Shown: positions 961 through 63,317 of the stretch, piece by piece | Position numbering within the stretch: the first letter of the stretch is position 1 | How the letters are laid out: the number at the start of each line of letters is the position of its first letter | Assembly (NCBI GenBank): GCA_007449985.2 | Contig: VIIQ02000208.1 | Span: 62,001-126,000 of the forward strand | Length of the DNA: 64,000 nt | DNA from: Desmodesmus armatus | Taxonomy: Eukaryota; Chlorophyta; Chlorophyceae; Sphaeropleales; Scenedesmaceae | Direction of reading: 5' to 3' | Position numbers and translations under genes: made by a program | The notes under the pieces: model-generated | The model's input: the letters and a program-made list of their open reading frames with translations, nothing else | Databases searched by the model: none | What the model was told of the DNA's origin: nothing

Positions 961-1007
961 GCTTGCCTGCCTGTCTGCTGCTGCCCACTGTTTCCCCTTG
1001 CCCATAG

Positions 1008-26677: not shown

Positions 26678-26830
26678 TTAAAAACAAAACCTTGAGGGTA
26701 CACATTTTGAGACCTCAAGCACAAAACTCAAGGCTTTTGAAACTCCCAAGAAAAGCGTATGCCAACACCACCAGCGCCTGCGCAGAAGGAGTCGACACAA
26801 CACAAATCCCCAACACACAAAGCCCCCCAC

Positions 26831-32163: not shown

Positions 32164-35100
32164 ATGCAGCTTCAAAGGCAGGCAGGCCACCTGACTGGCC
32201 AAACTCGGCCAAGTCAGCATCGAGTCGTGCCGGTGGCATCGCTGGGAGCTCTGCAGGCGCAGCCATGCAGGGGAACAGCAGCAGGTGCATCCCCTGCGTC
32301 AGCTTCGTGGGGCAGCAGCATGGTCAGGCCTTCTTTTGCGGCCTCTCCCCTGCAGCACAGGTATGGTGTGGCAGTAGACATTGCATTGCAGAGGCCAGGG
32401 CACGCCTGGCAGCCAGCAGCTGAGCCAGCTTGTTGCTGTGAATAGGCTTATGCACGGATCAGACATTGCATGCATGCAAGAAGGGTCTAGATCGTTTTGA
32501 GTGCTTTCTTGTGGTGCTGGGCAGCAGCAGCAGTGCGCTTGTGGGGATTGCATGTGACAAATGCAGTGTGGACCTCAAGTGCCTGTGGACACCATATACC
32601 TCACCACATGCTGTTCATGGATGCACCCTTGCACAGCACCTCTAGTCGAGCCGATAGCCTGCCTGCCTGCATGCTGCTATCTGAAAGCGCGTGCATGCAC
32701 CCACAACCATGCCACACTGGCCTCATCCATTCTGCAACATCACCCTCGATAAGCACTGTGTAATGTAACACACCCTTCAACAGTCACATCACAGCCCCTA
32801 GCTCTCACACTTTTGTTCATACGAAGCCATAAGCTTTGACATAATCCCTCCTGTGCCACCCCCCTCTTCTCCCCCCCTTCTCACTGCCATCACCCACCAC
32901 AAACACACAGCGGCCCAGGTTTCAGCCTCCCAGCCTGTGGTAGTCTGGCAGGGCGGGCGCTCTTGTTCCACCATGTGCCCTCTATACCTCTCAATCGTAC
33001 ACACAAATCCAGCACCCCCCCCCCCCCCGCCTCCTTTCACCCCCTTGCTCTGCATAGCAGCTTTGCAGCCCGTGTGCAGTCTGGCAGCAGCAATTGCAAG
33101 CGCATCACCGTGCGCTCTCTGCATCTCTCAACCTCACGCTCTTGAGCTCAGTGACTCACATGCGCACCCCCCCCCCCCCTCCCCCTTCCATCGCCCCCTA
33201 ACATCACCCCTTTATTCTCCACAGCAGCTGCGCCAGGCGCAACTTTGCAGTACACGCACAGCCCCGCGGCAGCGGCAATCATGCACACCACACAGGCTCC
33301 TGTTTCTCACGCTCCTGTGGTCACCCTTCCCTGACTTAAATCCCCACCCCTCCTCTGTTTTTCTCCTGTCACTCCCCCCCCCCCCCCCCCCCCCCCGTCT
33401 GCACAAACACGCAGCGGCCCCAGACGCAGCTTTGCAGCCCGTGCACAGTCCGGCAGCAGCGGCGGCAAGCGCATCACCCAGGCCGAATTCACCGACAAGG
33501 CCTGGCAGGCGATTGTGGCAGCACCCGAGATCGCCTCGGAATATTCCCAGCAGATTGTGGAGACAGAGCATCTTTTGAAGGCGCTGTTGGAGCAGCCCAA
33601 CGGTTTGGCTAGGCGGGTGATCAACAAGGCCGGCAGCGATGCTACGAGGCTGCTGGATAAGACGGATGCGTTCATCAGGAGGCAGCCGCGCGTGTCCGGC
33701 GACACCGCACAGCAGGTGTGTCTGTGTGGAGGTATAACTTGGGTGTAGTGTGTCTGCAGAATGAGGGGCGGGGGGGTGTAGACATGGTGGTGGGAAGGGG
33801 TGCGTATGCAGGGGAGGTTGGGTTGGCGCTGGGCCGATGTAGGCAGGACGAGTGTTGGGTGTGTTGGGGTCCGGGGGCCAGTCCTCTGTAGCTGGGAGGA
33901 AGGGGGTGCAGAAGGGTGTTGGGCCGGCAGCGATGTTACGCGGCTGCTGGATAAGACTGACGCGTTCATCAGGAGGCACTGCACAGCAGGTGCGTGGGGT
34001 GGAGGAGGGGGGGGGGGTGGTTTTGAGTGATGGGTGTGGTGCCTTTTGGTTATGCACTGGCTTGCGAAAGTGCGGCAGAGGTGATAGGATGTGACTTCGG
34101 GCAGATGTTGACCCCTTTCGGTGGGCAGAAGGGGGCCGGAAGCAGAGCGTCTGAGGACTCTGGAAAGTGGGCATTGCATTAGTGGGTGGGTTGAACATAC
34201 ACAGCAGCACCACATGGAAGCAAAGCAGGCAGTGCATCGAAAGGTAACGGCTGAGAACAGCAGGGCATTAGGCGTGTGCACACAGGGCAGTGTCAAACAG
34301 AAGAGTCCTGAGTCCACTCTCACCTTCTTGCAACTCATCACTGCTGCTGCTTTCTGCTTCTTGCTTCTGCCTTTTGCTGTGTGCCGTCCAATTGCATGAT
34401 TCTGATTCGGTCGACAGGTGCTGGGCCGCAACCTGGAGGGTGTAGTCAACTCAGCCATGGAGTTGAAGAAGAAGTGGAGCGACCAGTTCTGCTCCGTTGA
34501 GCACCTGGTGCAGGCCCTGGCCGCTGATGTGCGGTTTGGTGAGGCCCTGTTCAAGCAGGAGGGACTCACAAAGGCAAAGCTGGAGGAAGCCATCAAGGAG
34601 GTGAGAGGGGGGGGGGGTGTTTTCCGCACAGGTGTGCCTGAGCAGTTTGTGGGTGGTGTTGGATCTAGATGGGTGCAACAAGCAGCAACGGGGGGGGGGG
34701 GGGGGGAGTGTTTGGGCAAGGTGCTCGTTCCGCTGAGCACCTGGTGCAGGCCCTGGCCGCTGATGTGCGGTTTGGTGAGGCCCTGTTCAAGCAGGAGGGA
34801 CTCACAAAGGCTAAGCTGGAGGAGGCCATCAAGGAGGTGAGAGGGGGGGGGGGGGGTGTTTCCGCACAGGTGTGCCTGAGCAGTTTGTGGGTGGTGTTGG
34901 ATCTAGATGGGTGCAACAAGCAGCAACGGGGAGGGGGGGGGGTGTTTGGGCAAGGTGCTCGTTCCGCTGAGCACCTGGTGCAGGCCCTGGCCGCTGATGT
35001 GCGGTTTGGTGAGGCCCTGTTCAAGCAGGAGGGACTCACAAAGGCTAAGCTGGAGGAGGCAATCAAGGAGGTGAGAGATAGAGGGGCTGGGGTGTTTTTT

Positions 35101-38100
35101 TTGGGGGGGGGGGGGGGATCGTTCAGGAGTTTGCACAGCATTGCAGAAGAGCGGGGGCTGGAAGGGGGGGGGGGGGAGCAGGAGGGGTGCACAAAGCACA
35201 GGAAGGGCTGCAGGAGGGGGTGGGGTGGGGGGGGGGGGGGGGGGCTGGGGCTGTGAGGCCCTGTCAAGGCAGGAAGAGCTGACCAAGGCGATGAAGGGGT
35301 GCCAGGGCGGGCGCCCAGGGGGGGGGGGGGGGGAGGAGCGATCCAGGGGTTTTTTGGGGTGGGGGGTTGGGGGTGGGGGGGTGGGGGGAGACAACGTCGG
35401 CGTTCCAGAAGGGGGTGGGGGGGTAGGGGGCGAGTAGGAAGTGCCGTATTGTTGCATGGGACAGCAGCAAGGTGGTTGGCTAGGATTCACAGGGGAAGTA
35501 CAATGGCTAGGATTCACAGGGGAAGTACGAGCATAACGCTGTGCTGTGCTGCCCCATGCTCTGCTGTGCTGTGCAGAACCGTGGCAGCAACAAGGTGGTT
35601 GACCAGGACCCAGAGGGAAATATTAGGCGATGTCAAATTACCGCGTTCCATAACGCTGTGCTGTGCTGCCCCTGCTGTGCTGTGCTGTGCTGTGCTGTGC
35701 TGTGCCGTGCTGTGCAGATTCGTGGCAGCAACAAGGTGGTTGACCAGGACCCAGAGGGGAAGTACGAGGCCCTGTCAAAATATGCACGGGATCTTACAGC
35801 AGCAGCACGGGACGGGAAGCTGGACCCAGTGATTGGGCGCGACGATGAGATTCGGCGCGCTATCCAGATCCTGAGTAGGCGCACCAAGAACAACCCCGTG
35901 TTGATTGGAGAGCCAGGTGGGTGGCTTGGGATGTGTTGTGATGGAACGTTAGTGTTTGAAGGGGGCAGGGGGTCCCGGGGGGGAGGGGTTGGCAGGGGGG
36001 TATTGTGTGTGTTGGATAGGGTGTGTGTTGGATAGGGTGTGTGTTGGATAGGGTGTGGTGAACTACGCCGGGACCTCACAGCAGCAGCACGTGATGGGAA
36101 GCTGGACCTTGTGATTGGGCGCGACGATGAGATCCGCCTTTCAAGATCCTGAGTAGGTGCACTAAGCACAACCATGGCATGGTCTGATTGGAGAGCCAGG
36201 TGGGTCGGACAACGTCTCTGGTTTGGTGAACCACAGACGTTGTCCGAGGTTTGGTGAAGGGGATAAGCGTCGTGGGGTGAATTCCCCCCGGCTGGGACTT
36301 ACGTAGGTGGGGGTGGTGTGTATGGTACATGTGGGCAACACTGCTGTTGCTGAGGGGCTTGCCCAGCACAGTCTGCTTAGACTGTCATGTGCTCATGTTG
36401 CTTACCTGCAACATATCTATCATCAACATCACAGCACTCCCACTGTTTTCGCTGTTGCATCTGTTGCTGTGTGCAGGTGTGGGCAAGACAGCTGTTGCTG
36501 AGGGCCTTGCCCAGCGCATTGTTGCTGGTGATGTGCCAGAGGCGCTGCAGGGCCGCACACTGATGGCGTTGGACATGGGGTCACTAATTGCTGTGCCAAG
36601 TACAGGGGAGAGTTTGAGGACAGGCTCAAGGTGTGGGTGTGTGTGTGTGGGGGGGGGGGGGGGGGAGCACAGGTGGGGGGCACCTTGAAGGATAGGCGGG
36701 GGGGCAAGTGTGTGTCGACAGAGGGAGTACTTGGATACATGCAAGCTCACTAAGGCTGTCCTACTAGATAGGCAAGCGACAGTGTGTGTGTCGGGGGGTA
36801 TCTTTGGTGCAAATTGCAAATTGCAGATCTTGGCAGGCCTCTGGGCGTCACAACCATCGACCCTCTGGAGTGGCTTCCTGTGTGCCACATGCCAGTGTGC
36901 GCCTGTGCTGAAGCTACTGCTGCGTCTGCTTCTGCTGCTGCTGCTGTCCGACCTATAGGCTGTGTTGAAGGAGGTGTCTGACAGCAACGGCAAGATTGTG
37001 TTGTTCATCGATGAGATCCACACGGTAGTGGGGGCTGGAGCAACAGGGGGGGCAATGGATGCAGGTGAGTAGGGTAGTGTGGGTAGTAGGGTTGTGTAGG
37101 TGGTACCGGGGGGGGGGGGGGGGTCAGCTGTCTTGTGGGGGCATGGGCATAGGCATTTTCAGCCTGGGGGGGGGACAACAGGGGAGCCACAGGGGGCGCT
37201 GTTGTGTTTGGAAAGGGGGAGTTGCAGCAGTAGAGGGAACTAGCTTGTCCGGCCAAACTTCACAGTTACTCTCACACACATCAGCTGCTGGTCGTTATAT
37301 TGAGCTGAAGTATGCTGTTACTTTTCGTCCTGGCTGATGCTGACTTGCGTGATGTGTACTGATTCTGGTGTGCGCGTCTGCTGGCGCTGCTGCCAGCAGG
37401 ATTGTGTGATGCGCATGAATTATGTACTGGCAGCTACTAGTAAGTAATAGTATTACTTCCAATGTATGTGCCGACCCCTGGCACACACTGCGTGTGGTGC
37501 AGGCAACCTGTTGAAGCCCCAGCTTGCTCGTGGTGAGCTGCGCTGCATTGGTGCCACAACACTCGACGAGTACAGGAAGTACATTGAGAAGGACCCAGCA
37601 CTGGAGAGACGCTTCCAGCAGGTGGGCTGATGTTGGGGGGTTACACAGGGGCTTTGCCAGGGTTTTTGGGTGGGGGGTGGGGGGGGGGGGGAACAAGTCA
37701 CTGCCTTTTCTGCTGGGCGCTGCATGCAAGGCAGCTGTTGGTTCTTTGAAGTAGATTTGCAATCATCTAGTCGCTTGATGAACGACGGTTGAACAGGAAG
37801 TACATTGAGAAGGACCCAGCACTGGAGAGACGCTTCCAGCAGGTGAGGGATTACTGGTGCCGCTGTTGCAACTGCCTGTACATGAAGTACATCGTCTGCG
37901 TGTGCAGGGAGTACATCGTGAAAGTTACAAGCGTGATGCATGTGTACTTTCTTCATGTTGCTGTTGGGTTGGCGAAGACGCTGTTCTCAGGCTGTCTCGA
38001 CAGGCTCTCTCGACTACCCGTGCCGTCGCAGTTGCTCATCAGGTGTGGTTGCGTACTGTGCTGTGATGTGATGTGTCGTGTGCAGGTGTATGTCGACCAG

Positions 38101-41100
38101 CCCACTGTTGCTCAGACGGTGTCTATCCTGCGTGGCCTCAAGGAGCGCTATGAGGTGCACCACGGTGTGCGCATCAGCGACAATGCACTGGTAGAAGCTG
38201 CAGTCCTCAGTGACAGATACCTGGCGGACAGGTGGGCGTCTGCTTCTGTTTGGCTCGCGTGCGTCCCGGGGGAGGGGGGGGGGGGTGCAGAGGGAGTGCA
38301 GGTTGGTGTGGCTATGTGGGGCGGGTTTATTCCGTAGGGAGTTGCATGGCTGATCGGGGGGGGGGGGGGGGGGGGGGCATGCTTATCAAAGAAGGGGCAC
38401 ATGGCAATCGAGCTGCACTGCAAATGGGTTACAAACACTGCTTTGTTGCATCTATCTCTCATTTATCTCCCATGATTTCCCTGCAGGTTCCTCCCTGACA
38501 AGGCGATTGATCTGGTTGATGAGGCTGCTGCCAAGCTGAAGATGGAGATCACCAGCAAGCCTGAAGCATTAGATGAAATCGACAGAAAGGTGCTGCAGCT
38601 GGAGATGGAGCGACTCAGCCTGCAGAAGGTGAGTTGGCTTTGGCTTGAAGTGGTTTTTCTGGTGTTGTGCCAGTGTACCTGGCTGCGCTGTGCGTCATGA
38701 ACAGATTGTTGAGCGAAAATTGTCCCCGTCTCTCGTGTTGTGCTATGCTGCAATGCTGGTTGCACAACCTGCCGTGGGGAGCTGCTCTGCTTCTTGGGCC
38801 ACCACCAGTGGCGGCCTCATGCTGTGCTGTGCTGTGCTGCGGCCCTGCATTCCTTTTCCTCAGGCTGCCACCAGTGACCGTGCTGCTAAGGCGCTCCCAG
38901 CTGCCACCAGTAACCACCATCACTGACTATATTTGTGCCGTGCTGTGCTGTGCTGTGCTGTGCTGCTGCCCTGCCTGGCCGATTTTTCAGGCTGCCACCA
39001 GTGACCGCGCTGCCAAGGCACGGCTGGGCAACCTTGATGCGGAGCTGCAGAAACTCAAGGACGAGCAGCGGTCCATCGGTGAGCACAAAACTGAAGGCTT
39101 GTTGTAGTGTATAGTATGTGGATTGGATGATTGGATTGCATGGTAGCTGTTGATGCTCGTATCATGGCTTGGGAACACTACAGCTCACATGTGCATGCGC
39201 TTCCGTATTGTTCACGTGCCTGTGACAGTGGCAAACGGTTTTTTTCCTTGGCACCCCAATGCGGTTGACAGGAGTTGAACGTGTGACCTGTTGTGGTGAA
39301 TTTTGCAGGTGCTCGCTGGCGTGAGGAGAAGGATGACATGAACAAGCTGCAGTACTACAAGGAGGAGATTGAGAGGGTCAACCTGGAGGTGCAGCAGGCA
39401 GAGAGGGACTACGACCTAAACAGGTGTGTGCATGTGTGTGTGTGTGTGGGTGGGGGGGGGGGGGGGGGGTGTTTTGGCAATGGGCCATAGGCAGCGGGAA
39501 AGAAGTGAACTGGGCGTGTGAGAGCAGTGTGGGGTAAAACAGGGAATGCAGCAGGCACAGCGGGACACATAAATATGAGGGCTGCCAAGAAGCAAAACGA
39601 CTAATCATATTTTGCAAAACCAACATAACTCACACAAGTTCGTGCCTGCACACCTGCATGCCTCTGCAGGGCTGCTGAGTTGAAGTACGGCACCCTGATG
39701 GGCCTGCAGCAGCAGCTGAAGGATGCTGAGTCAGCTCTGGCGGCCAAGGCTGACGGCAGCAGGCTGCTGAAAGAGGAGGTCACTGAGGATGACATCGCTG
39801 AGATCATCAGCAAGTGGACAGGTAGGGCATGGGTAGGGATGTGGTGCGGTATGTGCACACTGGAGGGGGGGAGGTACAAGAGGTTGCTGTCGCTGTCACT
39901 GTTACTTCAGGCGTCCCAGTAGCTTTGTCTGCATACCACACCCGCTGATCCTGAAGCTGTCAGGGAATGCTATCACTGTATCTGCAACTGCAGGCATCCC
40001 AGTGTCTAAGCTGGTAGCCAGTGAGCGTGAGAAGCTGCTGCACCTATCTGATGAGCTGCACAAGAGGGTGGTGGGGCAGGACGACGCCGTGGAAGCAGTG
40101 GCAGACGCTATCCAGCGCAGCAGGTGGGTCTGGGGTGCTTTGACTATCCGTGCTTGCCCTTTTCTAGAGTTTTTTGCTTGTTTTGGTGGCCTTTGGCGGC
40201 AACGCAAGACAGTGTGTCTTACCCAGGCAGAGGCGTCTTTGTTTTGAGTAGAATGTGGGAGATGGAACACAGTGGTACTGTTGAGGCGGACTGTAGAGGG
40301 TGGTGGGCCAGGATGATACGTCGAAGGCAGTGGCAGACGCTATCCAGCGCAGCAGGTGGGGTTTGGGACAACTTTTCCACAGGATGAAAGGGTGACATAT
40401 CAGCGCTGAGCTTGCAGCAGCTTCGAGTGACGCAGCTATCCAGGCCATCAGCTGCCGCAGCATGGTCGTGTAACATGCTTTTGGTGTGTTGCACACTTGC
40501 TGTGTGATGCTGCAGGGCTGGCTGTGGTGATAGCCTGTATTGCTATGCATTTCTGCGTGGTCTTTCTGACATGCTTCTGGTGTGTTGTGTGTCATGCATG
40601 GTGGTTTGTGATGCTGCAGGGCTGGTCTGTCGGACCCCCAACGCCCCATTGCCAGCTTCATGTTCCTGGGGCCCACTGGTGTGGGTAAAACTGAGCTTGC
40701 AAAGGCCCTGGCCACAACCTCTTCAACACAGAGGACGCAATGGTGAGAGGGGATGGTAGGTTGGTGTGCGCGTCTGGGGTTGGGGGGGGGGGGCACTCTG
40801 CAATGTAAGCAACAATTGCAACGTATGCAACAGTGGAAGACGAGGATGGGTTCAAAGATCCACACAGGGTAATGGTTGGGTGTGTGTGGGGTCATGGAGT
40901 TGGCAAAGGCACTGGCCAACAACCTGTTCAACACAGAGGACGCAATGGTGAGAGGGGGTGGTGGGGTGTGCCCGGCGGGGGGGGGGGGGGGGGTGTCCAT
41001 CGAGGTCCGCATTGACATGTCTGAGTACATGAAGAAGCACAGGATTTTTTTCATTTGATGACTACAGGCTGGCATGACATCCACACCCTCACTAACTCAC

Positions 41101-43185: not shown

Positions 43186-43915
43186 GGTGATGATATGGTG
43201 ATGGTGCGTTTTGCAGGGCACCAACAACTGCAGTCGGGGGGTGGGTGGGTGTATGGTGGGGAAAATGAGGGTGACTGGTGCGCGGGGGGGGGGGGGGGTG
43301 TCAAAATGCGGATGCGGTTGTTGTACAGAGCTGTATCAAAGTGGTTGATGGGTTGTCCTGGTTTGCTCAGGCCCTGCTGCGGCAGGCGTTCACATGCAGC
43401 CTGCATGGTGGCAAGATTCACACTGCACGGTCCCCTCGCATGCTTTCAATTGGACTGTGTAGGGTTGTGCTGGAGCGGTGGATGTTGTGCCGCGCCATGG
43501 CTGCTTTGCACTCCGCTGAGAGGGATTGGCTGAACTTTTGGTGGTGGATCGGACCTGCGGCTCTGTATGCTACACCTTTTTGTGGTTGTTGCAGCTTGGT
43601 ATGCGGGTGTTCTCTCTATGTCAGAGTTGGTCACACGATGCTGTTCAATCACAATGACAGTGCATGTGCACTCATGGAGTCTTCTTACTCACTGCACCCT
43701 CTATGTCAGCGTGTCAGCATGTCGAAATGGATGTCAGCATGGCTCTTCATGTGTGTCTTTCCACAGCTGCTATGCAGCAGAAGGTTGTTGCAATGGTTCT
43801 GGGCAGGGAAAGGGCTGTTCTCATGTGGCAGCAGTCGTGCATACAAGCCTTGCGCAAGCCTTGCCTGCGTGATTGTACTGTCAGGCATGTGAGATCGTGC
43901 ATGGATTGTTATTCA

Positions 43916-43928
43916 TGTAAATGTGTAA
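43916..43928 (+). terminator. Possible polyadenylation signals of ClpB
   Basis: Two TGTAA motifs (43916-43920 and 43924-43928) lie about 730 bp after the ClpB stop. The 43186-43915 stretch would then be a long 3' untranslated region. It includes a G run at 43285-43297 and no other gene. Confidence 0.35.
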
Positions 43929-44699
43929 GCTGACCTTTACAGACCAGTGGCATTTGCACATCAAGAATTACCGCAGTGCTTCAGCCTGCTGTCATGCGCG
44001 GTGTGCGGCAGTAAAGTCATAATATTGCCACAAGCTGCCGTGGATTGAATCCAGCTATCATTGATGCAAGCCTCCATCATCCTGCAATCATCCTGCAAGT
44101 GCAGCTCATTGTTGTACTCAGACGCGCCGACCACATGGATAGAACATGTCACGTACAGTACTAGTAGGTATTTGAAGATGGCACGAGCCTGAGAAGCTAC
44201 TCAAGAACAGCAGCTCCCTGTCACCGTGCCAGTACATGTACATATCTACGTACACAATGTGTGCTGCTGATTGCATAAACGAACCGACTTGAGTGAATTA
44301 TGGCATGTAAAGGGCCCTACAACAAGGACATCATATGGCATCATCATATGCATATGGTTTCCATGCATGCAAACCTTGGACTGAGCCTGCCATGACATCA
44401 TGTCACATGCCTCACCTCCCACGTGACACGGAAGATTCTGAAACTGAACTGCACAGTTGATCAACACGCACCTTGGAGCCCTTGAGCTGAATCGGCGGAT
44501 TTTGAATTCAACCCTAGTGCACATCAGCGCACCAGGCTAGCAATGACACGTATCAGTCTCGACAGGGGATCAGTGATTTCATGTTGCTTTCGAAGCACCG
44601 TCCAGCCTGACATGCTCTCCTGCTCAGCAGTGCTGCTGTAAACTGTCGGGCCAGCTCTCGTGACATGGCTAGATAAACACAGTGATGGTCGCTTGAATC
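43929..44699. other. Intergenic region between ClpB and SOS1
   Basis: A/T-richer than its surroundings, with repeated CATATG/CATGCATG-like short palindromes near 44335-44365. No gene or repeat recognised. It must contain the SOS1 promoter. Confidence 0.4.
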
Positions 44700-44707
44700 T
44701 ATAAATA
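44700..44707 (+). promoter_or_regulatory. TATA box candidate for SOS1
   Basis: TATAAATA lies 25 bp before ATG 44725. If used, transcription would start almost at the start codon, giving a very short leader; or translation starts at a later ATG. Confidence 0.4.
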
Positions 44708-44724
44708 CCCCTACGTCAGTTGAC

Positions 44725-50700: not shown

Positions 50701-52268
50701 TGGTATTGGTAATCCAAAAGCGCCGCAGCATCTTGGTGCCACTGTGCTGCCATTTCCCCTGTTCTGGGGACTTCGATGTGTTGGTGGTGGTCTTTCAGCC
50801 GAGTTGTTTGGGTGAAGCACGCTGATCGGAGTAAAGACGCTCTAGCACAGGGCGGTCAGAGATACGGTGGCAGTCTGCCACACAGCATGCTCAGCTGGCT
50901 TGATCAGCCGGCATATGTCGACAATGTGGTGGTTGAAGTTGCCGAGGTACGATGCAATGCAGGGTGTCTCAGTGCAGGTCTTTGTGCCTTTCACAAGTGA
51001 CGCGTGTACTTCTGACATGCAGGTGTTGACTGGGGCCAAGTGGCAGCCTTCGTAGACCACGGCAGGAAGTACAGCGCATTCACTGGCGTCACCACACCTG
51101 CAGGCCCCATAAAGCGCCTCATGCTGCGCCTCTGGGCCTGCGCATGCTGCTGCTGCCCATGCCTACTACCATGGATCACCGGCAGTAGCGCTGCTGCCGC
51201 CACTGCTGCCGCCGCACAGCAGCAGCAGCAGCTTGAGCTGGCTGGCAAAGGGGACATTTCAAAGGACCCTGATCAAGGCCCTGGGCACGATCCTTCCAGC
51301 AATGGCCACAGCAATGGTAAGGGCCATGGGCGTAGGCACAAGCATAGGAGCCGCAGGCCCCATGGCAGTGCAGCAGACGGCATGCAGCAGGGGTTGAAGG
51401 CGGGGCCGCCAGTAGTCGTTGCTGCTGCTGCTGGTGACGGTGTGGCAGCTGCGGCACTGCCGCAGCTGCTGATGTCATCCTGTAGTGAGGGGGATGGGGC
51501 ACGTTCTAATGGTGATGCTGCTGTCTCAGCGACGGGAGCAGCAGCCACTGTGGGTGCAACAGCAATGCCGAACGGCAGCATGTCTGGAGGAAGCAGTGGG
51601 CGTCCGGCCAGGGGGACGGCAGCAGCGCGGCTTACTGGGGACTCCCAGGGGCAGCTGTGGGGCTCTGGGAAGGAGGACAACACGGAAGCAGAGCAGGCCG
51701 GGAGCAGCAGCAGCAGCAGCAGCAGTGACGCCGACGAGGTGCTGCCTGGCGTGCAGCAGCAGCAGCAGCAGTGGGTGCCACAGCAGCAATTACGTGGCAG
51801 GAGTCGGCTTGGCAATGGTGGCAGCTCATTCAGGCATCAGTGCTTGCGCAGGCGGGAGGCACAGATGCGGCACGTGAGTGGCACTGTCAGCGACTCGGAA
51901 GGCAGTAGCAGCAGCAGCAGCGGCAGCAGCGATGACGACGCCAGCAGCACCAGTGGGCATAGCATGGTCAGCAGGTATGACAGCAACCTTATCAATGACG
52001 TGCTGCCGTTCCTGCAAGCGCACGAGGTGGATGTCATGCAGCAGGAGTGCCCCTTCCTGCTAGATTCAGCCATGCAGCAGCAGCAGCGGGTGGCTGCTGC
52101 TGCTGCAGGCACGGCAGCAGCTGCGAACAGCAGCGGATGGCCCCAGCAGCAGCAGCAGCAGCAGCAGCCAGCTGGTGGGCAGCACGTGCTGCCTGTGGCG
52201 CACCAACTGCCGCAGCAGCAGCAGTACAAAGGCGTCAGGGGCCTCTACGAAAGGTGGATGAAGCCCCA

Positions 52269-52313
<45 letters not shown>

Positions 52314-55300
52314 TGCCCTGGGCGACAGCAGCTTGGCTGGTAGTGCAGCTGGGGTGGAGCTGCAGCGGGCCAGCAACAGTGCCAGTGCCAGCAACAGGCT
52401 TCAGCAGCAGCAGCAGGGCACGTCAAGAGGCTCTCCAACACAATCAGCAGCAGCAGCAGTTCCCCCGCAGGTTACATTTGACAACAGGTCGGGTTCCAAC
52501 TTGGCGCAGCCATCGCTGTCTGCGTATGCAGCTGCCTCAGCCTCCCGCAGCAACAATTTAGCCCCGGATCTCTCAGCAGCCGGCAGCAGCGGCAGGCCCA
52601 TGGTGCCAAGCCGAGGCACGAGCCGCAGCCTGGCAAGCCGCAGCGCTGCTCCTGCCTTGATATACGGCGGGATGGGCAGCTACTCTGGGGCAGCGGGGGC
52701 AGCAGCAGCAGCAGCAGGCAGCGCAGCTGGGTCTGGGTTTGACCCCATAGCAGCAGCGGGGTCACCGCAGCCTGGGCACCGCCGCAAAGGGTCTGAGGGG
52801 GCTGGTTTGGGGTCGCTGCAGGAGCAGGGGCAGGTTGCTCAGCAGCAGCAGCCGCCACGGCCGCTGTCGGTGACAGCAGCAGGCGCTGGGGCAGCGGCAG
52901 CAGCGCCGACGAGCGCAGGGTCGTGGGGTCTTGCAGGCAGCTGGGTGGCGACACAGCAGCAGGAGCCTGCGTCGGCCGTAGCAGCAGCAGCTGCTGTCGG
53001 GTCTTTGCGCAGCAGCTCTGCAGTGGGACCGGCGGCCGGGGGTCTGGCTGGTGGGGCGCGGGGGCTGCAGACGGGGACGGAGAAGGCGCTTGGGCGGCGG
53101 TCGGGTATGTATGGCCAGGGCCGGAGTCTGGGCACACGGTCGACCACTCTTGCCGACAGGTGGGTAGGAGCGGGAGGCAACTTGGGTTTGAACCTGGCGG
53201 GAGATTGGGAACCCTTTGAATAGCTCTGCAGCGGGGCGGCGGCTGGGGGTAATGCTGGTGGGGCGCGGGGGCTGCAGACGGGGACGGAGAAAGCGCTCGG
53301 GCGGCGGTCGGGTATGTATGGCCAGGGTCGGAACCTTGGGACGCGGTCGACCACTCTGGCAGACAGGTGGGTAGGGGCGGGAGGCAACTTGGGTTCGAAC
53401 CTGGCGGGAGATTGGGAACCCTTTGAATAGCTCTGCAGCGGGGCCGGGGGCTGGGGGTCCTGCTGGCGGGGCGCGGGGGCTGCAGACGGGGACGGAGAAG
53501 GCGCTTGGGGGGCGATCGGGTTGATGTATGGCCAGGGTCGGAGTCTGGGCACACGGTCGACCACTCTGGCAGACAGGTGGGTAGGGGCGGGTGGTTATCA
53601 TTCTTGATGCTGGCGAATGGTTGCACCCCCTGGATGCCTCTGTTGGTGCCCAAGTGTTGCAGCAGCCACAAGCACCCACTCGGATGCCTGATATATTATG
53701 TGCAGCTGCATGGGGGTGCTTCTTCACTGCATGCTTTTGTAAATGTAATGTTGCCTTTCAATTATGCATGCTCCCTGAGGTGGTGACTGTCAAGTTGAGG
53801 GGTGCCACGCACATGGGATGCCATGACTCATTATTAGGGAACGCAGTCTGATCAGCCAGTGTGCTGCATCTGTGCTGCAGGTATGGCGGCAGTCTGTCTA
53901 GCTGTATGGGGGTGCTTCTCCACTACAAGCTTCATGTACACAACTACTAGCCTTTGACTTGTGCATGTGCCCCGTGGCAGGCCTGACGGTACCTTCGCAC
54001 CTGGAACTTGTGTGTGTACAAGTAGAGACGCGTCAGTGTGATGTCTGATCAGCCAATGTGCTGCATCTGTGCTGCAGGTATGGTGGCAACAGCACTGAGC
54101 TGTTCACTCCCTTCCAGCCATAATAACTGCCGTTCCTCTCCTCACCAATCGTTCCACCTGCCGTTCAGCAACCGCTCCACCTGCCGTGCACTCCCTTCAA
54201 GTCATTCCACCTTCCAATGTGCTGCATCTGCGCTGCAGGTATGGCGGCAGCAGCACTGAGCCGTTCACTCCCTTCCAGCCATTCCACCTGCCAGAGGCTG
54301 AAGTGGCTGAAGGTGCACCACTGACGCGGCACAGCAGGGGCATCGCCGCTCAGCCAGATGCACAGGTAAACAGGCGGCGTGCGTATATGTATGTATGTTG
54401 TTAACCTGTTTCTATGCTGATGAGAAGTAGCATGCGTGTGTTATGTGTTTTTGGAAGGGGGTACGGTTTAGGGTTTGGCCAGGGGGTATAAGCCTGCTGA
54501 CACAACCATCAGCATTTGGTGCTGCGCCGCTTTTGCTGTTCATCCGTGCATGTGTTGTTCGTGGATACACAACGCATGGCATGCACATCAGCAAGTGCAT
54601 TCTGGCCTGAAGTTAGCATCGCTCTGCTTTCTCTTCCTTTTTTTCTGATCTCACAGGGTGCAGGCAGGTCGTTGCGCAGGGCAAGCAGCGAAAGCGAGCG
54701 CCGCCCCGATCGCGCCGAAAGCTGGGACGCAGCCGCCGTAGCTGTCGACATGGTCTCCCTCGAGCGCAACACCAGCAGCAAGACGCTGGGCGCCGCGACC
54801 TCCTCCCTCGCCGGTTCCGCAGCTGCCGCCGGCACCAGCGCTGCCCCCGGGTTCCCTACGCGCCCCGGTTCTGGCCACAACAGAGCGGGGTCTAGGGGTC
54901 TTGCCTCCCGTAGTGTTGGTCTCTCAGGGGCGTACGCACCCCCACCTGGGGGTATGGATATTCCCGGGGGCTCACAGCTTCCAGAGAGGCAAAGCTACCG
55001 TCCACAGGGCCACAGGTCCAGTATGGACGGCAGGAGCCTGGCCACCCGCAGCAACAACCCACACCTGCCCGCAGTCGTGGCCATCGCTCCCAGCCTCTCT
55101 ACGATCTCTACTGGCCTGGCCGCGTATAATAAGGGTAGTACAACAGCAGGGGGTGCAGATGGCAGCTTCAGGCAGCCGCCGGGTTTGCCCTGGGGCAATG
55201 CCGGAAAGGCGGAGCGCAGCCTAGCGGCGTCATCCGTCCCTGTGGCGGGGATAGTTGCGGCGGCTGCGGCAGCGGCAGCGACGGCTGTGGCAGCACCGCG

Positions 55301-58300
55301 CAGCGTCACTGCTGCCAGCGCTGACGGCAGCGCCGGCGGCGGCGGCAGCACTGGGAACCTCCTGAGCATGCTGAGGTCGTCTGTGGGTATGGGGGTGGCG
55401 CGTTCGAGCACCAAGGCTGGGGGGCCCTTTGGGCGGGCGTTTACGGATGATGATGAGGGCTACTCGGATGTTGACGGGATGTCGGACCCTTCTAAGCTGA
55501 TGCAGATGAATGATGCTGACCTGGCAGATGCACGCAGCTGGCTGGTGACCGGTGAGTGCAGCAGGGCACGTTCATCACCACAGTGAAGTGTGGTGGTACT
55601 GCCTGAGTAGTCAGGTGTTTTTATCATGGTTGCTTGGAGATAGCAAGCCTGGCTGGTTTGGTTGTCCTTGACTCGTCCCTTCCTCCTATGCAAAGTGCAC
55701 CATATGGTGACAAGGGCACATGATTCCATTCTGCCAGTTGTTTGCATTCTTCTTGCCTCACATCGATCTCGGTGTGGCCCGTGCATCTGTCCAATCTACC
55801 CTGCCGTTCACCCTCCCCCCCCTCCCCACCACACACCACAGGCCTCAAGCGTTACTTCCACGCCAAGCGCATGGAGGGCCTGCTGTCAGCGCGGGGCTTG
55901 CGCATCCTGGACAACGGCTGTGAGGTGCTGCTGGAGGTGCCGGAGAAGCCCATACACCTCTGGCACATCATCAGGGGGTGAGTGCATGTATTTGACCTGA
56001 GAGACTTGAGGTACCACAAGTTGGAAGGCCCTGTGGGCGCCCTCATGAGCTTTTGGCTCGCTGGCTAGTGCCGAGGTCGGGACTCTGTACCCCTCTTGCT
56101 GTGCTGTACTGTATAGGACAGCTGTGATTAGGAGGTGGTGCCTGGACATGTTGGGTCCTTGATGCAACCAAAGTATGGCGTGGAGGTGCCTGGGTGTCTT
56201 GCCCGCTTCCTGTGAATCGACTTGTACTTTGAGCACAGTGTGCACATGCGCACTGTGAGGGGCGTGATGCCTGTCGTGCACGGCAGCAGTGTAGGTCACA
56301 TCGTCTCAGCCCTGCAAAACGCTCTTAAGACATTGTGTGCTTGCAGGTCGCTCTGTAGTGGTGAATTTATGCTGTGCTGAACTGCGCTGCGGTCTTTATA
56401 TATGCGCGCTGCTTGTGAATCCTGCTTGTGGCAGGGACTGCGCCAATGGCACGCTGGTGCGTCTGATCACCTACCTGCTGTTTGGTTGCCGCCAAGCGTC
56501 AGTTGGCATGATGACCTGGGGCTGGGTCGGCCGCTGGCTGGCGTGGCCGCTCAAGGTTGCCGCCAGCATGCTGCAGCGTCCTCTAAACAAGGTGGGTCTT
56601 TCCTTTTGCCAGCATTTCATACAGTGTTCGACGGCAATACTGCTGTTCTTTTCAGTCACATGCAGCTAGGCCGTGTCACTTCCTGCCATTGTTTGGACCA
56701 TCTGTTGCCTGCAGCTCTGTTGACACAGTATGATCAGGCACTGATAAGATCAGTGAGTTTCCTTTGCTTCTCTCCTCGGTTGCCAACTTGTCGAGCCAGC
56801 TGGAGATACAGCAATCTATGCAGCCTCTTCTGTGGCCAGCCGGCTTGATGTTTGTCTCTGGCTGGGCAGGGCCTTACCCTTTGCCAGGGTCAGGAATCAG
56901 GGTCGGGGGCAGGGGCATAGCCCTGGGGCAACTGCTGAGACTACTGCTACTGAGACAAGGCGCCCGGTTGTTTTGCAGGTGCTGCTGATTTCTGTTGAGG
57001 TTGCCATGGAGTACCTGATGGGCCTCACCACCAGCCCACACGTGGAGCAGCTGCAGGTGAACGAGACAGAGGGGGCAGTCAGCACTGCATACCAGCCCTG
57101 TGGCAGGCGTCCAGCAGGCACAACATGAACTGCAGCAGCTGAGCAGCCGGGGCAGTCAGCACTGTTCTCCAGCCCTTGGGCAGGCGTTGAGCAGGCATTT
57201 TACAAGCTGCAGCAGTTGAGCAACTGGGCGGCGAGTTCAGCAGCTCTGGTGGTGCTGCAGGTGACGTGCCAACATGTTGACACCCTGCACAGTCTGCACA
57301 AAAAAGACATGGCTTCCACATAATCATGAACAGTGGTTGCGTCTGGGGCCAAACATCGCATTCATGGCGTGCAACCCACTTGTTGCTGTGTCGACGATTG
57401 CCTGTTGCTGCAGGAGAATGAGGCGTGGGCTGCTCTGCTTGCAGAGATCAGTGCTGAGGCTGGTCAGGTTGCGCAGTTCCTCATAGACAGGGAAATTGAG
57501 GCGCCCGAGCGCTACAGCGCAGTGCAGAGCTACCGTGTGGCCATGGCCGTCCTCCGACAGCAGCGCCTGTTTGTGGAGGTAAGGGCCGTGATGATACTTG
57601 AAGCATACTCAAATGCACGGCAGGACGGTTGCTGTGATACATGTGATCTGCATCTGTCCATGTGGCACCACGTCTACCTCTGGGGTATGCTGTGCACCAG
57701 GTGCATGATTTTCAATATGCCGCTGCATGCAGCGCTAGTTTCTATTTGAAGGAAGTTGTGAGTCATACCAGCTCATATGTGCCTTGTGGTCTGGCTGCTG
57801 CAGACGCTGTTTGAGTCAGGCATGCTGGACGCTGACCTTGTACAAGGCTTTCAGCATCCTATCGATGTACGGCCGTGCATGCAGTGCCTCCCTCTATCAG
57901 AAACCCATCAACCTTACTGGCCTGTGTGTTTGCATCGCACTGCCTTTTCCCATAGACGCTGTTCGAGTCTGGCATGCTGGAGGCTTCCGAGACGAGCGCG
58001 CTGTCACACCCCATCGAGTCTGCTGAACGGCGGTTGGAGCTGTTGGGTCCTGTGTGGCGGGCCCCCAGTGTGATGGAGGTGATGCGGCAGCTGCCTTTCC
58101 TGCGCGGCCAGCCCCAGTCCATGCTGGACTTCTTCCTCAGGTTGGTTGTGGCCATGCTGGCGATGCACGCTGCAGTGCCATCGAGCCTGTCAGTATACAC
58201 GCTGGCTGCCTGTGCAGTTGCAGCTGAGGTGCATGTGTGCATTGTATTGATGGTTTCCTTCCTGCGCGCGGCCAGCCCCAGTCCATGCTGGACGTCTTCC

Positions 58301-61300
58301 TCAGGTTGGTTGTGGCCATGCTGGCGATGCTTTTTGTCACTGAGATTGTCACCTGCATTGGTGGGACGCACAGAGCGAGATAGGGTGGGTGGTTATCCTA
58401 TCCCCCTAGTGCAGTGAAGGAAAAGAGCTGTGCTGATAGGATCGGGGTTAGAGGGGTGGTGTCCACTTGCAGATGCTTGCTGCTGCAAGCAGCAGCAAGA
58501 TAGAGTTGAGCCATCAGTCCTGGTCTGCTGTGACCCTCATACACACATGTGCACTAAGTTTGCAGAGCGGCTCACCCTGTCCTGTTCTACCTTTTCGTGG
58601 TGCAGGCATGGCCAGCTGGTGATGCTGGGTAAGGGCAACAACCTGCAGCTGGGCAAGGTGCTGTACGTGGTGCAGTCAGGCATTGTCAAGGTATGTCGCA
58701 CGCCCCACAACTTGCATGGCAGTTTCTGTTTGTGTGCTCTGCAGTACACCACATCACTGCTAGCCTAGGGCCACCAGACTCCCTCTGCAGAGCTGTGGTG
58801 CCCCCCTCCCCTCCATCTGTACCCCCCCCCCCCCTTTGCTGCGATGCACACCTGCCTTCCTTGAAAATGCTGCACGGCACAACCTGTCTTCGGGTCTGAT
58901 GCAGAGCGTGCATGTGTCATTATTGTCATGCATCAATCAGAGCGGTCTTTTTGGTATGCGTGTGTCAACAGAGGCAAAGTCTGAGGCATCGCACTAGCAC
59001 TGCTGTGCCTGTCAAGACGTGGTATTCCACACCACAATGACTTACTACTTGTGTTGGTGCTGTGCTGCAGGTGACGTACAGCCCCGACCTTGGTGATGTT
59101 CAGGAGTACTTCCTGGGCTCTGGCGGGCTGATCAACCTGTACGGCAGCCTCACCGGCGAGAGCATGCCTGGACTGACAGATGCCGTGGCACAGGTGATTA
59201 TGTGTCATTGGCTTTATGGGGGTGTGATGGGGTGCGTTTTGTTTGACTTGGGCTCTGGCGGGCTGATCAACCTGTACGGCAGCCTCACCGGCGAGAGCAT
59301 GCCTGGACTGACAGACGCCGTGGCACAGGTGATTATGTGTCATTGGCTTTATGGGGGTGTGATGGGGTGCGTTTTGTTTGACTTGGGCTCTGGCGGGCTG
59401 ATCAACCTGTACGGCAGCCTCACCGGCGAGAGCATGCCTGGACTGACAGACGCCGTGGCACAGGTGATTATGTGTTTGACTTTGGGTTGTGATGGGGTGC
59501 GTTTTGGTGGGCTGGTCAACCTGTATGGCAGCCTCACCGGCGAGAGCATGCCTGGACTGACAGACGCTGTGGCACAGGTGATTATGTGTTTGACTTTATG
59601 GGGGTATGATGGGGTGCGTTTTGTTTGACTTGAGCTCTGGCGGGCTGATCAACCTGTACGGCAGCCTCACCGGCGAGAGCATGCCTGGACTCACAGATGC
59701 CGTGGCACAGGTGATTATGTATTTGATCGATCGATCTGGGGGGGGGGGGGGGGGGGGTTGCTCTGACTTCGAGAGGAGGGAGGGATGTGACTGGGAGCTT
59801 GTCGTGGTGTTGGTGGTGGTGGTGCTGGCTCAGCACTGTGCACAAGTCACTGCAAATCTCCATGCTGGGAATGTCAGTTGCTTGGCGGTTGGAGGGCTCG
59901 GGGGTGGGCAGTTCGTCATGTCATGCACCCATGTATGTGTCTGCATGTATGCGTCTGTCGCAAGCAAGGCAGTGGCCATGCGTCACCGACACCGACAGGA
60001 ACATGCTTTGGAAAGTGCGATGTGACATGCAATATGTGCAGGGTGATGCCTTGGCAAGGGCCCAGTCATGTTCCGCTGCATCAACAGGATTATTCATGAT
60101 GCTACCAGTGATGTTATGAGACCGCCGACCCACAGCCAACAACATGGTGTGGCTGAATTTGTTGTACCAACTGACCCATGGCAATCAACACACATGACCC
60201 AATGTTTATTTGGGGGGGGGAGGTTGTTACAAGTGGATACTTTCACCGCTGAGTTAAGTTAACCCTAAACCTAACCCTTTGTGCACGCACTGTGCAGGGC
60301 AATGCACTGGGCAAGGGCCCTGTGCTGTTTTGCCTTGGTGCCAAGGGCCTCAGGAGGCTGGCGGCAGCAGCTGCTGCTGGGGACCCCGCCTTCCAGCAGC
60401 TGGAGCTGGACATGTACAGGCTGGCAGGTACGTGTATGGTTGTGTAGAGACTTGACTGAACAGTGGTGAACATTGAACAGCCTCTGACTTGCGAATGCAG
60501 CCGACACGCATGGCATGTATATGATGCACTTGCAGCTACGTCGCTCAAACATGTTTGCTGTACAGCTGATTGGGGGGGGGGGTGCACTTGGATACTTTCA
60601 TCGCTGGGCTGATGCGTCATTGACTGACTTGTTCTGTCGTCACACATTACTTTTCACCAACTGCAGGTATGTTCCTGATCGAGCGACTGAAGCCCCAGCT
60701 TGATAGGGAAGCCAGCCAAGCCCTCGCCCGCCTGGCACCCCTCACCACAGCAACTGCTCGTCCCTCCTTTTTTTTGTCTTTCGCCTCACTTTTCATCACT
60801 TTTTGCTGTTGTTCTCACTCAAATTTGGTTTATATAATGGCCCGAGGCCCCTGCCTCTGTCTTACGCTCTCTCAGGACTCTTTGTCCTCTTGGCACACCC
60901 CTCTTTGTACTGACTTGCAGGTCTATTCCTGATTGAGCGGCTGAAACCTCAGCTGGACATGGAAGCCAGCCAAGCCCTGGCCCGCCTGGCACCCCTTACC
61001 ACAGCAGGGGCAGGGGGCCACCGCGACAAGCGCAGCTCACGAGCGCAGCGGGCCGCATGGGTGCGGCAGAAGCTGGCGGCGATGCGTGCCTCTCTGAAGG
61101 CTCAGCTGTTGCTGGGGGAACTGCTGGTGCTGTCTGAGGGGCGTCGGTGGTGCAGGATAGCCACGTCATGCTGATGAAGGGCACTATCCAGGTGTGTTTG
61201 GCATAGGGGATACATATGTAGCTACCGTATAGTGGAACATGCAAGCTACATGCAAGGACCTTTAGGAAGAACACACATCCCATGAGGCGTGTGTGTGTTT

Positions 61301-63317
61301 GTGTTTGACAGGAGGGGGCTGGATGTCGCAGATGCTACAGATCAATGCAGGTGCTGCTACATATCACACTCTCAATCGCTCCCCACCCATGTTAAGACCA
61401 AGTTGGCCCGCTTCCTGCAGGTCAAGATTGCTGATGAGGCCATCATGTGGCTCCCGCCTTGCTCCTTTGGCAGTCTTTCATGATCCATCTCCCCCCCCCC
61501 CCCCCCTTTTGGATCTCCGAAGCTTCAACTTTTTGTTCATGTCTGCAGGTCAAGGTTGCTGACGAGGCTATCATGGCATAGCAGGTGCTGGCCACAATAT
61601 GCATGGCTGCTGCTGATGCCTTCACCTCACTGCCTGCCATTTCCGAAAGGTGGCACTTGATTCCAGCTTTGATAAATCATCGCCATGTTTGCTTGCTGCC
61701 TGCAGGTCAAGGTTGCTGACGAGGCCATCATGGCACAGCCTGGAACTGCTGACATTGCGCGCTGGATGGCCAACGCGGGGCGGCACCAGCACCAGTCCAT
61801 CCTGCCTTGGTTCTGGGACCTGATGAGCGAGGATGACTTGCAGAGGGCACCAGGTATGCATATGGCTGGTGCTGCCAGCGTGTCCTGCCTTCATGCTGGG
61901 CTTTGTGAGTATAGGATCCTCAGGGGTTGACAGTTGGCACATGAAACGGTTGAACTGGCTGTGTAGAGGGAGCTTCTGGCTTGACACGGTCAGTGGCGTA
62001 GTCTGAAGTGAAGATGTCCACGTTGGACGGGGGCTGATGTTGGTCCCTGCAAGGTTTGGCAGCACAATCGGTACGCCTACAGTCTCATGCATGCCAAAGT
62101 TGCACACCGCTCAACACAGATAGACTGGCGCTGCCTTCTGTATGGTTGGACCATGCGGTTTCGTGTTCGCTTTCAATAGTAGACTGATCATGCGCCCTTG
62201 TGCCACCCTGCATGTGCTGTGCCCTCCCTCTGCAGCCGGCACCCCCCAGCAGCCGCTGCCAGTCACCATCTCTGCAGGAGACGAAGGCGCCACCCTGCTG
62301 GTTTGCCCCTCACGCTTCCAGGACGCAGCACAGCACGGCACAGCGGGAGAGCAGCACCCACCAGCCGGCGGCTCCCTACTGCTGCCACCTGGCCGTGTGT
62401 CTGGCCAGGGGCCCGCCCTTCTGAGCCCTTCCCAGGGCGTGGGAGGGCCTCAGGGCGCCCCTGGGGGCTTGCAGCCTCCCGGGGTGCACTTCGCCCCCCA
62501 CAGCCCCGGCAGTAACCTGGCACGCATCAGCCCTGTGGTTGGTGGGCGTGTTGGGGCCCAGAAGGGGCTGACAGGTGGTGTGGGGAGCCCGGTTGGGCGG
62601 CCAGGGGCGAACAGATCGGCGCAGAACACCTACAGCCGCCGCAGCATGGCGGCGGCGGTGGCGGCTGCAGATGCTCTGATGGACCCTCTGCCTGGGTGCT
62701 CAGCGGCAGCGCCTCGCTCAGCGGCAGCAGGAGGTGCTGGTGGCGTAGGAGGGGGGCTGGGCCGCCTGAGTCCTGTGCCAGTGGTGTCGAGGGTTAGTCC
62801 CTCTGCAGGGTCTCTCACAGCAGCAGGGGGGCTGCGGGGCGTTCCAATCACGCATCAGCAGGGTCAGGCAACACGTTCAGCGGCCGGTGGAAGCGGGGGT
62901 GGGACAGATGGGCTGCCGAGCCTGCAGCGCACCAGTTCAAACGCCCCACTTGCAGGGGCGCAGGTTGATACTGCGGTGTCCCTTGGGGTGGACATGAGGG
63001 CGGGACCGGTGGGCTCTCTGGGGCTGCAGACAGACCTTGGATCCGCTGCTGCTGCTCAGGTTGGGGTGGGGTGTGTACATGCGGCGGGCGGCGGCAGTGC
63101 TGCAGCAGCAGTGGGCAATGATGCAGATCTGCCATTATCACTTGCAACAGTAGGTGGTGTGTCAGCAGCAGCAGCTGGGGAGGGTGCTGAGGGGGCGGCT
63201 AGGAGGCAGCAGCTGCGAAGGTCTCGGTCGCAGCGGCCGCTGAAAGCGACCGGCGGCGCACAGGGTGGGGAGCGGCACGTGGGCGGCAGCAGGGGTAGTG
63301 CGGGGCAGCGTGGCTAA
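44725..63317 (+). CDS. SOS1: SOS1/NHX7-type Na+/H+ antiporter, very long
   Basis: Plasma-membrane Na+ extrusion by H+ exchange. Twenty-six in-phase exons: 44725-44887, 45153-45275, 45862-46025, 46604-46787, 47168-47262, 47564-47654, 47960-48020, 48409-48503, 48830-48998, 49208-49481, 49786-49893, 50389-50497, 51023-53159, 54239-54365, 54657-55551, 55842-55977, 56435-56591, 56979-57056, 57414-57578, 57956-58140, 58606-58690, 59071-59193, 60298-60427, 60921-61191, 61706-61853, 62236-63317; 2451 codons. A signal-peptide-like start (CCVLLLLLLEGPGLAVGAS) is followed by the exchanger domain to about residue 510: FFYVFLPPLLLDAAVRID, ASTDAVAIV, LLEGESLLNDASG. A low-complexity Gln/Ala/Ser/Gly insert of about 1100 residues follows. 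SOS1-like segments (YSAVQSYRVAMAVLRQQR), a cyclic-nucleotide-binding-like fold (LVMLGKGNN, LYGSLTGE) and an Ala/Gly/Pro-rich tail end the protein. One G is missing near 61140. The role is inferred from the family. Confidence 0.85.
46460..46507 (+). repeat. Upstream partial copy of SOS1 exon 4
   Basis: AGTTTTGTGCAGTTTCACAC through CTGGTTGTGGGTGCCAC repeats the exon-4 start after its own tcctgcag acceptor. The intron before it (GCCTG.CATTGTTCTTGCTGCT) is duplicated too. The copy is frameshifted relative to the exon. Confidence 0.85.
50307..50330 (+). repeat. Short upstream copy of SOS1 exon 12 start
   Basis: CCAGAAAAGCAGCTGGGGCGG resembles the exon-12 start CCAGAGAAGCAGTTGGAGCGG. It is short and diverged. 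A (TATTGG)n run lies downstream at 50693-50713 in intron 12. Confidence 0.4.
53014..53595 (+). repeat. Three 207-bp tandem copies of the SOS1 exon 13 end and intron 13 start
   Basis: Units start at about 53014, 53222 and 53429. Each holds GGGGCGCGGGGGCTGCAGAC, the coding stretch GTEKALGRRSGMYGQGR and LADR|GTGGGTAGG. The first two also keep the intron end reading NLAGDWEPFE. Only the first copy is joined to the long upstream exon. Similarity is very high, so the array is young. Confidence 0.9.
53881..54121 (+). repeat. Two upstream partial copies of SOS1 exon 14
   Basis: 53881-53905 (GTATGGCGGCAGTCTGTC) and 54078-54121 (GTATGGTGGCAACAGCACTG through CCCTTCCAGCC), each after GTGCTGCATCTGTGCTGCAG. 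The real exon starts at 54239 after the same acceptor sequence. Confidence 0.85.
57804..57836 (+). repeat. Upstream partial copy of SOS1 exon 20
   Basis: ACGCTGTTTGAGTCAGGCAT then GCTGGACGCT repeats the exon-20 start after the acceptor gctgcag. Confidence 0.85.
58258..58330 (+). repeat. Downstream partial copy of SOS1 exon 20
   Basis: TTTCCTTCCTGCGCG then GCCAGCCCCAGTCCATGCTG, to TTCCTCAG|GTTGGTTGTGGCC, repeats the exon-20 end together with the first 25 bases or so of the intron. Exon 20 thus has copies on both sides. Confidence 0.9.
59113..59725 (+). repeat. Five-copy array of the SOS1 exon 22 end
   Basis: The stretch GSGGLINLYGSLTGESMPGL then TDAVAQ|GTGATTATGT occurs five times; copies end at 59193, 59328, 59463, 59577 and 59710. 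Spacings are 135, 135, 114 and 133 bp. Because 135 and 114 are multiples of three, an open frame runs from exon 22 through four copies including the intron parts. Copies are nearly identical. A CGAT-CGAT-C and a G run (59738-59756) follow. Confidence 0.95.
60261..60276 (+). repeat. Interstitial telomere-like motif
   Basis: AACCCTAAACCTAACCC, two imperfect units of the plant/algal telomere repeat CCCTAAA, lies in SOS1 intron 22 shortly before exon 23. A second short match (GTTTAGGGTTTGG) is at about 54467 in intron 14. Either may be chance. Confidence 0.4.
60667..60757 (+). repeat. Upstream partial copy of SOS1 exon 24
   Basis: GTATGTTCCTGATCGAGCG through GCACCCCTCACCACAGCA repeats the first 90 bases of exon 24 (60921 on). 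It codes MFLIERLKPQLDREASQALA against LFLIERLKPQLDMEASQALA. The acceptor (actgcag) is intact, but there is no donor after it. Confidence 0.9.
61421..61578 (+). repeat. Two upstream partial copies of SOS1 exon 25
   Basis: 61421-61447 and 61549-61578 both code VKxADEAIM after a CTGCAG acceptor. The second ends in a stop (GCATAG). The real exon starts at 61706 with the same residues and continues AQPGTADIARWM. Confidence 0.9.

Follow-up and report, generated by a model that had tools for sequence, protein, structure and literature searches.

Truncated exon copies obey a side rule in introns of ClpB and SOS1 genes of Desmodesmus armatus

Local copies of exons are familiar from tandem exon duplication and from mutually exclusive exons. 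Small tandem duplications are formed at staggered breaks by CST/Pol alpha-primase fill-in and end joining, in the part of that account used here (PMC8355091), and the exon copies that we describe resemble them, as far as that part goes, in being local, direct, short and without a mobile element. They also resemble intron gain by tandem duplication in the potato RdRp gene, where, in the portion of the report drawn on here (PMC4974935), a segment spanning an intron-exon junction was duplicated locally together with its splice signals. Similarly, excerpts on stwintron donor duplication in Lipomyces (PMC7138796) describe duplicated donor elements near the original, and excerpts on introners (PMC9860276) describe insertions that change gene structure.

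Our copies lie in a window of 64,000 nucleotides from Desmodesmus armatus (contig VIIQ02000208.1, positions 62,001 to 126,000), part of a genome of 115.8 Mb in 831 contigs. The ClpB exon boundaries were placed using splice signals and tblastn with a Tetradesmus obliquus homologue, and this species also provides the closest named sequence for the ClpB protein among the matches listed (88% identity). For SOS1 we used homologues, tblastn and splice signals, and boundaries were guided by a home-made ab initio gene-finding model; the closest named sequence among the matches listed is from Scenedesmus sp. PABB004 (67% over 34% of the query). The ab initio model, which also supplied the exon marks in alignments of control loci, proved too loose. 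The SOS1 exon at 54239-54366, and the end and donor of the long exon at 53159, lack homologue support and were placed by eye, and 4 of the 29 copies reported below derive from these exon ends.

We compared 16 ClpB and 24 SOS1 introns with exons of their own gene, masking simple repeats and requiring a score of at least 34. Three low-complexity SOS1 exons were trimmed to 150 bases at the junction and excluded from the non-adjacent comparisons. This unbiased test identified 29 significant copies, all in direct orientation and all from the adjacent exon; a first-pass annotation had counted more than 25 partial copies in the introns of these genes. Copies of 3' parts of exons lie downstream of the parent (16) and copies of 5' parts lie upstream (13). 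The strict side rule proposed in that annotation thus holds for all 29, with no exception found among them. None of 725 comparisons of introns with non-adjacent exons, and none of 805 with reverse-complemented exons, exceeded the score. The copies belong to 19 of the 80 tested exon ends, 15 of the 40 introns and 16 of the 42 exons (9 of 17 in ClpB and 7 of 25 in SOS1), so the earlier statement that they flank most exons was too strong. Weaker matches to adjacent exons (scores 22-33, low-complexity exons omitted) numbered 18, against about 8 expected, and therefore few older copies are still detectable.

The copies reach the splice junction to within 8 bases in 26 of 29 cases. Downstream, the last exon base is reached in 14 of 16; one of the other two ends 31 bases short in the local alignment but, beyond a deletion of 20 bases, picks up again at the junction, and one ends 25 bases short. 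Upstream, 12 of 13 begin no more than 8 bases from the first exon base and one begins 21 bases in. One sub-threshold copy begins 28 bases inside the exon. All 20 copy sites named beforehand were recovered at or near their positions (59328 is the end of the copy at 59249-59328), two of them with amendments: at 33055 there is a copy, but the shared tract starts 11 bases inside the exon, and at 36331 there is a copy that has lost its acceptor AG. Coordinates of the genes and copies are collected in the table.

Table. Genes and exon copies in the window (positions are those of the window).
Feature	Coordinates	Strand	Remarks
ClpB gene, chloroplast-type ClpB/Hsp100	33415..43185	+	17 coding exons, hand-modelled
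SOS1/NHX-type Na+/H+ exchanger gene	45152..63317	+	25 exons modelled
INSIG-like gene 1, acceptor-side unit	829..1087	+	two units including parent
INSIG-like gene 2, acceptor-side unit	4780..5331	+	four units including parent
Copy of ClpB exon 1 5' part (33426-33478)	33057..33109	+	upstream; outside tested introns
Copy of ClpB exon 1 3' part with donor	33922..33989	+	internal deletion of 20 bases
Two further copies of ClpB exon 2 3' part (34493-34600) with donor	34729..35070	+	236-base array
Two copies of ClpB exon 3 5' part	35462..35640	+	upstream; acceptor of the second at 35576
Degenerate copy of ClpB exon 3 3' part	36069..36199	+	donor intact
Copy of ClpB exon 4 5' part	36330..36392	+	acceptor AG lost
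Copy of ClpB exon 6 3' end plus GTG	37793..37845	+	53 bases, 100% identical to 37572-37624
Copy of ClpB exon 9 acceptor region and 5' part	38820..38892	+	
Copy of ClpB exon 12 3' part with donor	40295..40360	+	
Copy of ClpB exon 13 3' part with donor	40897..40993	+	about 46 intron bases
Two copies of ClpB exon 14 5' part	41005..41164	+	upstream; inner spacer repeated, outer flank not
Degenerate copy of ClpB exon 14 3' part	41723..41813	+	donor intact
Copy of SOS1 exon 3 acceptor region and 5' part	46394..46515	+	
Two copies of long SOS1 exon 3' part (53014-53159) with donor	53222..53576	+	
Two copies of acceptor and 5' part of SOS1 exon 54239-54366	53846..54131	+	upstream
Copy of SOS1 exon 57956-58140 5' part with acceptor	57804..57865	+	upstream
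Copy of SOS1 exon 57956-58140 3' end with donor	58259..58330	+	26 intron bases
Four further copies of SOS1 exon 59071-59193 3' part with donor	59249..59710	+	array, about 121-135 bases
Copy of SOS1 exon 60921-61191 5' part with acceptor	60667..60752	+	
Two copies of SOS1 exon 61706-61853 5' part with acceptor	61421..61582	+	

Comparison of the window with itself, which the first-pass annotation had called for, identified 47 direct repeat pairs less than 1 kb apart and no inverted pair that close (BLAST, E of at most 1e-4). A more sensitive intron-internal comparison gave an inverted score above threshold in 3 of 40 introns. In the self-BLAST, no local direct pair (less than 1 kb apart) was found between 7753 and 33057. 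The window also contains a tandem pair of INSIG-like genes (831-3042 and 5075-7505; longest aligned blocks about 79-88% identical), named from a weak Pfam match only (E 0.0009, 19.3 bits, cut-off 28). These obey the side rule, as had been claimed: one gene has two acceptor-side units and the other has four. At 8679-13670 and 26821-31386, on both strands, lie related genes that are leucine-rich-repeat-like in the one frame examined, below the curated cut-off. Runs of at least 8 G or C occur at 1.75-3 per kb in 32001-44000 (ClpB), versus 0-0.75 per kb elsewhere in the window; in ClpB introns the long runs are mostly of G on the coding strand. A short stretch inside an SOS1 intron (60260-60278) is presumably telomere-like.

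The trait is patchy and is not confined to the window. Local direct repeats (E of at most 0.001) were identified in 14 of 60 kinase/kinesin loci, 3 of 10 LHC loci, 2 of 5 random 10-kb stretches and 5 of 7 other Clp-family loci (two overlapping), counting any local direct repeat, only part of which were identified as exon copies. For example, among the best 6 of 24 pairs in one random stretch (L073), most are a simple repeat shifted by three. The high density is therefore not general. We drew alignments for 11 of the 25 loci with local direct repeats. By eye, L004, L024, L026, L076 and L082 clearly contain junction-spanning copies that obey the rule, and L083, where the parent exon is not modelled, likely does; the remaining 5 of the 11 are ambiguous because exon models or gene strand are uncertain. 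The LHC family is highly expressed. High expression was considered as a cause of the patchiness and rejected, given local direct repeats at 3 of 10 LHC loci.

The first-pass annotation attributed the copies to repeated small tandem duplications whose two ends fall on opposite sides of an exon-intron boundary. Such an event converts X-J to X-J-X-J, and a full-length match to the spacer J is then required of whatever follows the final exon copy. We examined this at 28 exon ends, 22 in the window (19 with significant copies, one with an older copy at 60042, and two INSIG-like units) and six elsewhere (L004, L026 (two), L076, L082 and L083, where some junctions are possibly a few bases off). At the outermost copy, homology on the intron side spans a mean of 0.29 of the spacer. 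Duplications that straddle the boundary remain supported, but a repeat of the whole spacer is in most cases not. Coverage of at least 0.7 was identified in 3 of 28 cases (SOS1 exon 3, one INSIG-like gene and, with a weak score, SOS1 exon 21), and in 16 of 28 the intron-side match is no longer than 90% of those at unrelated junction pairs. The distribution of coverage departs from uniform trimming (Kolmogorov-Smirnov p 5e-5).

That all of the copies are plain, complete small tandem duplications whose intron halves have merely decayed is unlikely. Their direct, local, junction-spanning character and the side rule are as this explanation expects, and there is collinear homology of the intron half in some cases. 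In a collinear test with dinucleotide shuffles and the splice-signal zone skipped (22 comparisons), z was at least 2 in four (SOS1 exon 3, and ClpB exons 3 on the acceptor side, 9 and 13) and below 0.5 in 11, although for ClpB exon 9 the value is no better than its own displaced control. SOS1 exon 3 is the clearest full-unit tandem duplication. The mean collinear z was 0.82 (standard error 0.46) versus 0.14 for displaced sequence; a first mean of 1.1 for the similarity of spacer and outer flank fell to this value with dinucleotide shuffles. The middle of one 197-base unit also shows weak similarity (z 2.1, rank 8 of 400). Within arrays, inner copies, spacers included, are 82-97% identical, and the near copies of five arrays retain intron and exon sides about equally. 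Yet in six arrays inner copies match over 88-261 bases, whereas the flank outside the array matches over 2-56. Identity does not predict how much of the intron half is retained (Spearman 0.22, p 0.53, 10 donor-side events). The most alike pair of all, at ClpB exon 6, has identity that stops three bases past the donor; its spacer (37622-37792) is unrelated to the outer flank, and the flanks give z -0.97 despite a 100% identical copy at 37793.

Many pairs would thus be spaced direct duplications (copy, unrelated spacer, copy). Trimming, insertion of a copy by template switching, or filler at a break could each yield such pairs. We considered spacers as mobile inserts, and this was unsupported in the three searched in the genome: 37625-37792, 58167-58258 and 40135-40290 each matched only themselves in a search that omits very common words, and so no mobile insert is seen there. 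Separately, one spacer contains a dispersed short element. A 77-base dispersed repeat was identified in two ClpB introns (36708-36784 and 41446-41522), with 40 places scored of 395 candidates in the genome, on both strands and at 93-100% identity; it is probably a short mobile element.

On balance, we favour with modest confidence junction-spanning local duplications made by error-prone repair or template switching, with survivorship giving the side rule. Short tracts spanning a junction would be duplicated repeatedly and in direct orientation in some genes. Their exon part is about a dozen to 146 bases, the intron part of the outermost copy is 2-67 bases, and the nearest copy lies about 120-400 bases away, inside the adjacent intron. 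We infer that the duplications arise when staggered breaks undergo error-prone repair or when replication switches template backwards. The intron half of the unit would often be left incomplete, with some pairs arising as full tandem duplications and some being amplified into arrays by slippage or unequal exchange. A duplication that stays within an exon, or that takes in the exon as a whole, will tend to disrupt the gene and be eliminated. Events internal to an exon would thus disappear, and those that cross a junction would strand the extra copy in the intron on that side. For events that straddle the junction, and with gene-breaking events lost, the side rule would follow from geometry and survivorship, and no special mechanism would be needed. 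This explanation is supported by the direct orientation, adjacent-exon origin and junction reach of the copies, by the identities within arrays, by the full-unit homology in 4 of 22 comparisons, by INSIG-like copy numbers of 2 versus 4, by the three spacers that match only themselves and by the same geometry at other loci. It gives no reason for the shared tract to stop near the splice signal, and it leaves the rarity of intron-only duplications and the repeat-free majority of control loci unaccounted for.

The focus on junctions suggests a further reading, in which duplications are targeted to splice junctions by a splicing-linked mutational process that seeds introns with working decoys. We regard this as rather improbable. 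It rests on tract ends near the splice signal, on the rarity of interior-exon copies and on the near absence of intron-only spaced copies. With copies masked and the same threshold, 18 intron-internal direct repeat pairs were identified, most of which belong to junction-spanning events as their intron portions. Another four (36005, 41858, 45290 and 57072) are clearly intron-only, and these are short and near-contiguous. A further pair, 40473/40569, sits right against an acceptor and could be read either way, and the offset of 53704/53900 is that of a junction event. By a rough estimate, intron-only copies are far fewer than intron length would predict. Random local template copying of any nearby sequence is disfavoured by the 26 of 29 copies that come within 8 bases of the junction.

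In its specific form, copying tied to splicing would use RNA or spliceosome-bound junction fragments as template, and copies would then end at splice signals; on the sequence evidence this is improbable. In 9 of 13 donor-side events the intron-side end does fall 3-26 bases beyond the donor, and the 26 of 29 copies that come so near the junction and the small number of intron-only duplications point the same way. However, intron tracts have equal medians on the donor and acceptor sides (23 and 24 bases) though acceptor signals are longer, and strict ending at junctions is contradicted by two of the 29 copies, whose ends lie 21 and 25 bases from the junction, as by the sub-threshold copy described above. 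Arrays contain plain intron sequence, and no precedent was found among the top results of a literature search. Should the same focus on junctions be seen across the genome, a mutational process linked to splicing would be indicated, for example one templated by RNA or the spliceosome.

We doubt strongly that the local duplications are assembly artefacts of noisy reads or of merged haplotypes. One-base frame breaks are present in conserved exons (near 36593, 40717, 41338 and 43065 in ClpB, and near 61140 in SOS1), and are likely long-read consensus errors; about four one-base deletions in ClpB exons and at least one SOS1 frame break are typical of such errors, and the spaced structure looks like that of joined haplotypes. 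Consensus errors, however, cannot create copies that are several percent apart and vary in number between paralogues. The copies differ by up to about 25% including gaps, 3 of 26 contain in-frame stops, arrays reach five, several contigs contain copies of this sort, and the three spacers searched match only themselves.

Many copies carry splice sites. Decoy donors average 9.2 bits versus 9.5 for their parents (15 copies), a level reached by 0.5% of 1323 other intronic GT, and decoy acceptors are weaker than their parents (6.9 versus 9.0 bits, 13 copies). The donor GT is intact at 10 of 10 exon ends and the acceptor AG at 9 of 10. Conservation of splice sites appeared strong at a uniform 10% divergence but was not significant with event-specific divergence (donor zone, 4 mismatches versus 7.7 expected, p 0.10; GT, p 0.16). 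Selection at the protein level, suggested by 61 synonymous and 44 nonsynonymous differences in 26 copies, weakened once mutation spectrum and repeated copies were allowed for: synonymous differences make up 56% versus 45% expected (p 0.02), or p 0.10 without the copy at 60667, which alone has 9 synonymous versus 2 nonsynonymous differences. The offset between parent and copy is divisible by three in only 4 of 20, so there is no preference for in-frame isoforms. It is thus very improbable that selection keeps the copies for useful decoy sites (e.g., to slow splicing or yield unproductive transcripts), despite the near-parental donors, the intact GT and AG and the slight synonymous excess. The copies look young and mostly neutral, and near-parental donor strength fits this; the decoy sites would be intact because the copies are young. 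That duplication is ongoing, as the first-pass annotation suggested, is plausible from identities of up to 100% and from the differing INSIG-like copy numbers.

Introns with many recent, strong-looking decoys of their own exons constitute a natural test of how the spliceosome chooses sites. The process also supplies material from which introns and exons can change, and such changes have mostly been described case by case.

Compared with known systems, several differences are apparent. None of the 29 copies is a complete in-frame exon duplicate with both splice sites; unlike mutually exclusive or cassette exons, these copies are truncated, lack one parental splice site and show no frame preference. 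No new intron with ends from a duplicated AG-GT was found, and the copies are inside introns bounded by modelled exons. In the part of the potato RdRp report considered (PMC4974935), a single event is described; here the parent exon is in place, the copy is within an existing intron, and there are many events in two genes. The stwintron duplications, in the excerpts used (PMC7138796), are of 4-7 nucleotides, adjacent and functional, whereas ours span tens to more than 100 bases and include exon sequence. Introners, as portrayed in part of PMC9860276, are multi-copy elements, unlike the three spacers searched here. Among the top literature results we found no published report of such a density or of the side rule. 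Duplications at staggered breaks, as far as the portion of PMC8355091 goes, differ in that the pairs here mostly have an unrelated spacer and a shared tract that lies across splice junctions. We conclude that the copies and their side rule hold, and that the first-pass reading of their origin is right in part.
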